From positions 1 to 64,000 of the forward strand of contig CALJAA010000095.1 in the NCBI GenBank assembly GCA_938028465.1: a stretch of DNA of 64,000 nucleotides, read 5' to 3'. The number at the start of each line of letters is the position of its first letter. Position 1 is the first letter of the stretch. Below are positions 56,551 to 58,750 of the stretch, piece by piece. This DNA is from an uncultured Granulosicoccaceae bacterium (GTDB taxonomy: Bacteria; Pseudomonadota; Gammaproteobacteria; Granulosicoccales; Granulosicoccaceae). The notes below the pieces were generated by a model. It had not been told where the DNA came from. It ran no database searches and saw only the letters and a program-made list of their open reading frames with translations. Both the position numbers and the translations under genes were made by a program.

Positions 56551-57774
56551 TTATCGTTCACCCAGCGTTAATGAGTAAATATCTCCTAAGGTATCTCCCG
56601 TTATCGTACTGGTACTAGCGCCGCTACCCCATACTACGCAACTTGTTGGTGGTGTCGCGATTGGCTCTTTCATGTTAACGGCGTTATTTGCTATACCCGC
56701 TCTGAAGTGAAGGGTTGCAGGGAGTAAGCCGCCAGCACAATCTGCTGCAGTAATTTGCTCATGGTAAAACAGGACAACGTTCGGCCTAGTCCAAACAGTA
56801 TTCGCGGGTATAAGCAATGTGCCGAGTTGTGTTACTGCTTGCGTTTCTGTATCCAGTACAGAAACGCCTAGCTGGGTGCTATCAGTACTATCTTCTTCGA
56901 ATGCCAATTCATACCAGTGATCTTCTTGCCAGTCAAACGGCAGAGAGCAACGCCTGTTTGAACAATTAGAGTCGGTTCCTGTCGCTGGTATTAACGTTAC
57001 GTTACTCTCTACGTTGTTGTTAAAAAATCGGGCAAATCGACCGAAGCTCGGATCATCTAGCAAGTCGATGGAAATACTTATAGCCGTATTCACATCAATA
57101 AGCGATATACGGTATGCCGCTCGACGGTTTGGGTTAGTGGTTTGTACGTTTATTGGTTGGGAAAAACGTGTGACTCGGCCACTCAATGCCGTACTCTCGA
57201 ACAGGTTATAGTTTTGCTGTACTACCGGTGTTAGTGTTTGGCTTGGAGTTTTAGGTGCGACTATATCAGCAGGAGCGACGACGTTGACAGGTGCACTCTC
57301 TAGTAAACAAATCGGCCCATCGGCTCGCCCTGGATCTGTACCGTTAATGACCTCGTCCAAATTTGAAACACGATCACAATCGTAATCAAAACCGCTACCT
57401 TCAGACACACTAGTCAAAAGTGGAGTCGCGACTTCTTCCGAATTTCGACTGAACAATGTGCCTTCTTGCATCATCAGAAGAATATCGTCGTTAGCAAACC
57501 ATTCAATTTTTATCGGGTATTCTCTTGCTGCTTCGATATTGAGATAGATTATCCAGTTGTTATCGGGGTAGTTCCGCCCAAAGTACGATGTGGTAGTGCC
57601 GTCAACTGTGACAACGGCTGTCAGCTCGCTCATCGGTATCGCGCGCAGCGTTGCCGGTGTTGAGGTGGTACTCACAGTGGACGTAGGAATGCCATTGCCG
57701 CCATTGTTACAAGCGGAGAGTAATATCAAGCAACAACTTAGAAGCAAGGCTGATTTAGTGGTTAAGGTCTTCAC
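56551..57774 (-). CDS. Hypothetical lipoprotein
   Basis: Lipobox LLSAC; DYDCDRVSNLDEVINGTDPGRADG resembles a calcium-binding thrombospondin type-3 repeat. Confidence 0.65.
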   Translation of the reverse strand: MKTLTTKSALLLSCCLILLSACNNGGNGIPTSTVSTTSTPATLRAIPMSELTAVVTVDGTTTSYFGRNYPDNNWIIYLNIEAAREYPIKIEWFANDDILLMMQEGTLFSRNSEEVATPLLTSVSEGSGFDYDCDRVSNLDEVINGTDPGRADGPICLLESAPVNVVAPADIVAPKTPSQTLTPVVQQNYNLFESTALSGRVTRFSQPINVQTTNPNRRAAYRISLIDVNTAISISIDLLDDPSFGRFARFFNNNVESNVTLIPATGTDSNCSNRRCSLPFDWQEDHWYELAFEEDSTDSTQLGVSVLDTETQAVTQLGTLLIPANTVWTRPNVVLFYHEQITAADCAGGLLPATLHFRAGIANNAVNMKEPIATPPTSCVVWGSGASTSTITGDTLGDIYSLTLGER

Positions 57775-57781
57775 GATAAAT

Positions 57782-58750
57782 CTATTGCCCTGGAGGAGTT
57801 AGCGAAACGCCGATTCGATTGGGTTCATTACCGCTATCGCCTCCATTGGCAGCTGCAATAGCAATAAGTGCGATCGCGACGCCACCGGCGATTTTCCAAT
57901 AATTTCTAGTTGGTTTAACGTTGATTTTGTCGATAGGATTTAAGGCTGAAGCCTGCGAGCTCACTTGCGATAACCTGCTTGTTTGACATTCTACAAAACA
58001 CCATTTACTAAAAATACGATCCTCAGAGACGGGCTGCTGCGTAGTATTGGTTAGCTTAAAAACGTGAGTCGATACTAACTCGTGCATTGCTTTAATACCA
58101 AGGCCCGGCTGCGTTGCCATGACCTCTAATAACTGGCTTGTATAGCTACTGTTTCTTCTGTTTAGATCGTCTGAGCTCCACACGCCAGTACTGGCGGCAT
58201 AACCGATAAAAGTGCCTTCCGGTATATCCCTTATTTTTTGAAGCCCACTATGAACGCCCAAAAAGCTGCTACTTAGCGGGTTGTTGCGGTTGGCATCCAG
58301 TAGCAATACGTTGGTACCATTTGGATTGTATGATTTGAGAATTTCAACAATGCTGCGCAAGCTGACTGTTCGATCCCTTAAGTCAGATTGAAATTTTAGG
58401 TTGTTATTAATAGGGAGTAAAAAGCTATCTCTATCATTGGATAAACCGTAGCCAGAATAATACAAAACAGCATCAGCGCCTGAAGGTAAAGATTGAGCAA
58501 ATTCATCTATAGCTGTTTCAATCGATTCGCGATTTAAGTCTAGCAATGGGCCATTAGTAAATAACCGGTAGCCCATGCTCTTAAGCTGAATGGCCATATC
58601 AGTGGCGTCAGTAGTAGTAACTTGCAAGGCAAAAGGTTTGTAATCGCTATTCCCGATCACGATTGCATGGCGTTCTGCTGCATGCGTGATCATGGGTATT
58701 GCCTGTAGCAGTACCACAAAGAATAGCCTTAAAAAGTGGCGCGAAGTCAT
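57782..58750 (-). CDS. Caspase-fold (peptidase C14-like) protein, likely inactive
   Basis: HAIVIGNSDYKPFALQVTTTDATDMAIQLKSMGY; YYSGYGLSNDRDSFLLP; LLLDANRNNPLSS; C-terminal TM. Confidence 0.82.
   Translation of the reverse strand: MTSRHFLRLFFVVLLQAIPMITHAAERHAIVIGNSDYKPFALQVTTTDATDMAIQLKSMGYRLFTNGPLLDLNRESIETAIDEFAQSLPSGADAVLYYSGYGLSNDRDSFLLPINNNLKFQSDLRDRTVSLRSIVEILKSYNPNGTNVLLLDANRNNPLSSSFLGVHSGLQKIRDIPEGTFIGYAASTGVWSSDDLNRRNSSYTSQLLEVMATQPGLGIKAMHELVSTHVFKLTNTTQQPVSEDRIFSKWCFVECQTSRLSQVSSQASALNPIDKINVKPTRNYWKIAGGVAIALIAIAAANGGDSGNEPNRIGVSLTPPGQ

Follow-up and report, generated by a model that had tools for sequence, protein, structure and literature searches.

A 64,000-nucleotide stretch of DNA (the window) encodes a pseudo-orthocaspase, P0001, in which the catalytic His-Cys dyad of active C14 members is replaced by Tyr101 and Asn154 within a recognizable p20 domain. 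We read P0001, with a probability of about 0.55, as a dead orthocaspase that has been kept as an envelope-located caspase-fold scaffold or binding partner for a co-encoded lipoprotein. The sequences show a dyad lost in two steps, Cys first and then His, with the caspase-fold core since retained by purifying selection and one substrate-side loop freed of it. The dead caspase subunit would sit in the envelope and bind the lipoprotein without proteolysis, and it would still serve in a structural or allosteric way and not by capturing substrate. The gene and the codons at its two catalytic positions are as follows:

57782..58750, minus strand: pseudo-orthocaspase gene, 322 aa (P0001), from the open reading frame list, with a match to Pfam PF00656 and weaker PADLOC and NCBIfam caspase matches
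58448..58450, minus strand: Tyr101 codon TAC, at the catalytic His position, from the MALT1 alignment, the codons and the homologue table
58289..58291, minus strand: Asn154 codon AAC, at the catalytic Cys position, from the same sources; Asn is also present in the relative G005

P0001 belongs to the orthocaspase/C14 p20 family. Residues 27 to 243 matched Peptidase_C14 with 69.4 bits (E value of 4.9e-19), which at a cut-off of 21.4 bits is not a chance assignment. Orthocaspases differ from metacaspases in having no p10 domain; a general Pfam search, not one aimed at p10, matched no second domain. The PADLOC and NCBIfam caspase matches were weak, and no defence-system assignment was made. A promoter and terminator scan gave signals no more than chance. 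MALT1 was the top PDB match to P0001 by sequence, and a profile of seven P0001 relatives matched it with an E value of 5e-23. In the phmmer alignment with solved MALT1, "ysgyg" was aligned with YAGHG and "lldanrnn" with LLDMCRKR; the MALT1 motifs YAGHG and LLDMCR contain its catalytic His and Cys. The corresponding P0001 motifs are YYSGYG (residues 97 to 102; codons TAT TAT TCT GGC TAC GGT) and LLDANRNNP (residues 150 to 158; codons CTA CTG GAT GCC AAC CGC AAC AAC CCG). The alignment and the homologue table thus bear out the original prediction that both dyad residues are replaced. The only cysteines of P0001, C251 and C255, are both C-terminal to the p20 core, which leaves no other Cys to take over. 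An active site built from another His-Cys pair would have overturned that prediction, but the p20 domain contains no Cys. In the proposed structural comparison, the fold match to MALT1 agreed with the sequence, but AlphaFold, run with two sequences, returned poor models (pLDDT of 39 for full P0001 and 42 for p20), from which only the order of elements and the Foldseek ranking were used. For the low-confidence p20 model, 17 MALT1 chains ranked first in Foldseek, followed mainly by caspases and metacaspases, together with some unrelated folds at weaker E values.

The closest relative of P0001 (58% identical) is encoded in G005, whose locus matches contig CALGND010000175 from an uncultured Granulosicoccaceae MAG. 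This protein reads YFAGHG and LLDANRNNP; His is retained and Cys is replaced by Asn. Among the 28 of 31 homologue rows that were readable at both positions, 26 had His/Cys; the two exceptions were the window, with Tyr/Asn, and G005, with His/Asn. One G061 copy was entered twice in this table (G061a and G061b), and the second G061 orthocaspase copy, which was examined separately, also had His/Cys. A maximum likelihood tree joined the window and G005 with support of 100/100 inside a clade (99/99) of ten TM-tailed rows, and the remaining rows all had His/Cys. Since G005 supplies a His/Asn intermediate and the other readable homologues have His/Cys, the simplest history would place Cys to Asn before the split of the window and G005 lineages and His to Tyr afterwards in the window lineage; all window-G005 divergence would then postdate the loss of Cys. 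Across 369 sampled gammaproteobacterial genomes, matches from outside the order reached at most 218 bits, compared to 366 to 484 bits for the subfamily, and nearly all of them had His/Cys. One gammaproteobacterial caspase-like protein (L099) reads YFSGHA and LDASQENP, with Cys replaced by Ser and His retained.

Three features of the P0001 termini bear on its location:

58679..58750, minus strand: N-terminal hydrophobic segment, probable signal peptide (residues 1 to 24), by inspection, with a basic n-region, a hydrophobic core and THA-A
57986..58000, minus strand: Cys251 and Cys255, a pair conserved across the TM-tailed subfamily in the homologue alignment
57842..57892, minus strand: C-terminal hydrophobic segment, with a Gly/Asp/Asn tail after it that ends in VSLTPPGQ, from the sequence

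Its N-terminal segment, together with the conserved pair of Cys residues, suggests that P0001 is exported to the envelope. With regard to the C-terminal TM anchor that had been proposed, the hydrophobic segment is present, but the charges do not fit a simple type I topology. TM-tailed caspases mostly carry Lys/Arg on the N side of the C-terminal helix and Gly/Ser/acidic residues beyond it, and basic residues before the helix are at odds with a periplasmic domain and a cytoplasmic tail. The same unusual C-terminus, consisting of a hydrophobic Gly-rich helix, a Gly/Ser/Asp stretch and a short terminal strand, was also observed in non-caspase proteins of about 220 to 255 aa (L034:6000-6704, minus strand, and ORFs in L016, L022, L042, L043, L091 and L092). 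Common to caspases and non-caspase proteins, it is possibly a sorting or anchoring tail.

The gene downstream of the caspase encodes the putative binding partner:

56551..57774, minus strand: partner lipoprotein gene P0002, 407 aa, GTG start, from the open reading frame list, starting 7 nt beyond the caspase stop codon
57709..57720, minus strand: lipobox LSAC, lipoprotein residues 19 to 22, by inspection; Cys22 is invariant in six relatives
57352..57390, minus strand: TSP3-like motif FDYDCDRVSNLDE, at the end of the lipoprotein N-terminal domain, conserved across partner lipoproteins

By inspection, P0002 has the signal sequence with a lipobox Cys that is characteristic of bacterial lipoproteins, and its relatives matched TSP3_bac and Big_13 in Pfam. 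Its C-terminal half gave no confident domain (DUF3472 at 0.011 to 0.065; best PDB match at 0.2). A weak PHROGs match to a spanin, confined to the first 58 residues, was read as lipoprotein signal similarity. In G005, a syntenic lipoprotein (64% identical) lies 6 nt downstream of the caspase, and FKBP, spermine-synthase-like and RIO kinase genes flank the pair in both genomes. The pairing that had been noted from the window sequence is therefore kept in a second genome with almost the same spacing, and the suggested search for paired lipoprotein homologues recovered them both in G005 and beside catalytic orthocaspases. Full-length relatives of the window lipoprotein were found in G015, one of them inside the caspase cluster. 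From this tight and conserved gene pair we infer that P0001 binds the lipoprotein.

Most catalytic members (those of G010, G015, G022 [two loci], G030, G058 and G061) are encoded in a module that comprises a sigma-70 region-2 protein, a TM protein, an M48-TPR peptidase, the orthocaspase and a lipoprotein. The position of the TM protein suggests an anti-sigma role. The module loci are L032, L033, L035, L036, L070, L071 and L073, some of which have DUF4384 and OmpA-like genes close by; L071:5427-9521 (G061) carries a tandem pair of orthocaspases and, after it, a tandem pair of lipoproteins. The N-terminal domain of the lipoproteins beside catalytic orthocaspases ends in the TSP3-like motif, and their C-terminal part is variable: Pfam identified an FGE-sulfatase domain in G020, similarity points to the same domain in G015 and G022, and the part is CBM9-like in G058. 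At L034:9014-10237, a partner lipoprotein with an FGE-sulfatase domain adjoins an orthocaspase with an intact dyad; there are also proteins elsewhere that fuse the two domains, caspase and FGE-sulfatase (PMC3501461). The sigma and M48 genes of the module were not found anywhere in the window's genome (G000) or in G005, both of which are incomplete; G000 comprises 223 contigs and is 88.8% complete, so that these genes, or an active paralogue, could be missing from the assembly. In G020, which has an intact dyad, sigma and M48 genes were likewise not found at the locus or in the same gene searches, and loss of the module genes thus does not strictly track loss of the dyad. No description of the module was found in the literature searched, which is weak evidence of absence. 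It is conceivable, if rather doubtful, that the module serves envelope sensing in this order, with the TM protein as regulator and the lipoprotein at the surface beside the sigma factor, M48 peptidase and orthocaspase, and that in the window lineage the protease has turned into a purely structural subunit of a receptor, with the lipoprotein as its only partner. If true, a dead caspase would be a component of a bacterial envelope receptor.

The codon pattern of the p20 core shows strong purifying selection since the split from G005 and argues against simple decay. Differences between the window and G005 numbered 71, 48 and 119 at codon positions 1, 2 and 3, respectively (232 positions each); the asymmetry between second and third positions (48/232 versus 119/232) had a P value of 7.5e-12. 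The substrate side was inspected at three sites:

58139..58204, minus strand: substrate-side loop, residues 183 to 204, constraint lost in comparison with catalytic relatives
58607..58609, minus strand: Asp48, acidic S1-pocket position, kept; Asp in 31 of 31 aligned rows
58295..58297, minus strand: Asp152, acidic S1-pocket position, kept in the homologue alignment

In catalytic relatives, loop 183-204 has the consensus A.DG.GRN..YT, and pairs of them kept 14 to 18 of 21 loop residues (0.67 to 0.86) at a core identity of 0.53 to 0.68, which is similar to or below that of the window and G005. The window and G005 shared only 5 of 22 (0.23), with differences spread almost equally over the codon positions (10, 12 and 12). 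The remaining active-site loops were identical at 21 of 31 residues, which equals the core level. The fold has thus been under selection while loop 183-204 was released, the loop result coming from 22 codons of one pair.

This pattern weighs against the strongest competitor of the scaffold reading, a substrate-trap pseudoprotease whose pocket would bind basic (Arg/Lys) peptides uncut and sequester or present them. P0001 keeps the two acidic specificity-pocket residues (D48 and D152) that are also kept in cyanobacterial pseudo-orthocaspases (PMC6426788), and with Ser99 present as well, it could still bind peptides. However, P0001 has lost N44, P45, N47, G195 and G198, none of which varies among close catalytic relatives, and N44, P45 and N47 have thus eroded together with the otherwise conserved loop 183-204; D194 is lost in G005 as well. 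We therefore regard a substrate trap as improbable, and the view that the substrate region is conserved holds for the two acidic residues but not for the lost positions or the unconstrained loop.

Alternatively, the gene could be a redundant remnant, in decay since the sigma/M48 part of the module disappeared. A dyad with neither residue left, the eroded loop and the missing module genes would be expected from decay, and the dN values between the window and G005 for the caspase (0.32) and the lipoprotein (0.30) exceed those of the flanking genes (0.02 to 0.14); dS is saturated (about 2), and dN/dS is therefore only approximate. Nevertheless, neither lineage has lost the open frame although synonymous divergence is saturated, and in neutral simulations the frame stayed open in 0 of 2,000 runs at third-position divergence and in 1 of 2,000 at total divergence. 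Together with the codon-position asymmetry of p20 and the retention of the partner lipoprotein under equal constraint, this makes decay less plausible still than a substrate trap.

Dominant-negative control of an active orthocaspase that shares the cell with P0001, as known for human cFLIP-L (PMC6426788), would fit G005, which has a second, intact orthocaspase (G005:C31); no other PF00656 match was found in the window's own genome at 88.8% completeness, and we consider this role quite unlikely. An error of base calling or assembly at the dyad is more improbable again: one base change, CAC to TAC, would turn His into Tyr, and the 223-contig assembly is incomplete, but Cys to Asn takes two base changes, Asn occurs in two genomes with different codons (AAC in P0001 and AAT in G005), and residues flanking the motif are altered too. 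Residual catalysis through other residues, such as Asn154, Tyr101 or Ser99, has nothing direct in its favour and is hardly credible in a p20 core without Cys and with an unconstrained substrate-side loop.

The scaffold reading has to be set against known dyad-less caspases. A Tyr/Asn version with a C-terminal TM anchor and a paired lipoprotein was originally considered possibly new; the Tyr/Asn pair itself is not, since a YN clade of pseudo-orthocaspases has already been described in multicellular nitrogen-fixing cyanobacteria (Klemencic 2019, PMC6426788; see also Jiang 2010, PMC2853523, and PMC8283722), and HN is listed among the rarer dyad variants (PMC8283722). Pseudo-variants were reported mainly in Alphaproteobacteria and Cyanobacteria, and a photosynthetic role was suggested (Klemencic 2019, PMC6426788). 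Photo_RC (PF00124) was not found in G000 or G005, both incomplete, and a photosynthesis link for P0001 was not supported; as far as these genomes tell, the host looks like a non-phototroph. Photo_RC genes are present in eight genus mates (G002, G003, G007, G008, G009, G015, G017 and G019). P0001 lacks the conserved Trp a few residues before Tyr that marks the cyanobacterial YN clade (PMC6426788) and reads SGADAVLYYSGYG instead, and it differs further in its hydrophobic C-terminal tail and its lipoprotein partner gene. The window and G005 also nest among gammaproteobacterial His/Cys orthocaspases of the same order, and this nesting, together with sequence identity, points to an origin independent of the cyanobacterial clade; the caspase tree itself contained no cyanobacterial sequences.

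P0001 thus completes a natural series of His/Cys, His/Asn and Tyr/Asn within one bacterial order, in which the role of a caspase fold that no longer catalyses can be explored; the series lies outside phototrophs, has a defined candidate partner and draws attention to the orthocaspase-lipoprotein-sigma-M48 gene module. The catalytic orthocaspases of the same order (G015, G022, G058, G020, G030 and G061; 29 to 44% identical to P0001) share its architecture, hydrophobic tail, C251/C255 and lipoprotein neighbour, but have an intact His/Cys dyad and a conserved substrate loop and mostly stand with sigma, TM and M48-TPR genes. MALT1 (3uo8 and 3v4o), the best solved match in sequence and fold, with its His/Cys motifs aligned to Y101/N154, is an active human protease with Ig domains and has only the caspase domain in common with P0001. 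TbMC4 of Trypanosoma, cited in PMC6426788 and PMC8283722, is likewise a dyad-less caspase-fold protein that keeps a cellular role, but is a eukaryotic metacaspase with a Tyr/Ser (YS) dyad and no lipoprotein partner. Compared to these systems, P0001 is new in having arisen independently within Gammaproteobacteria, in the His/Asn intermediate represented by G005 and in its lipoprotein and module setting.
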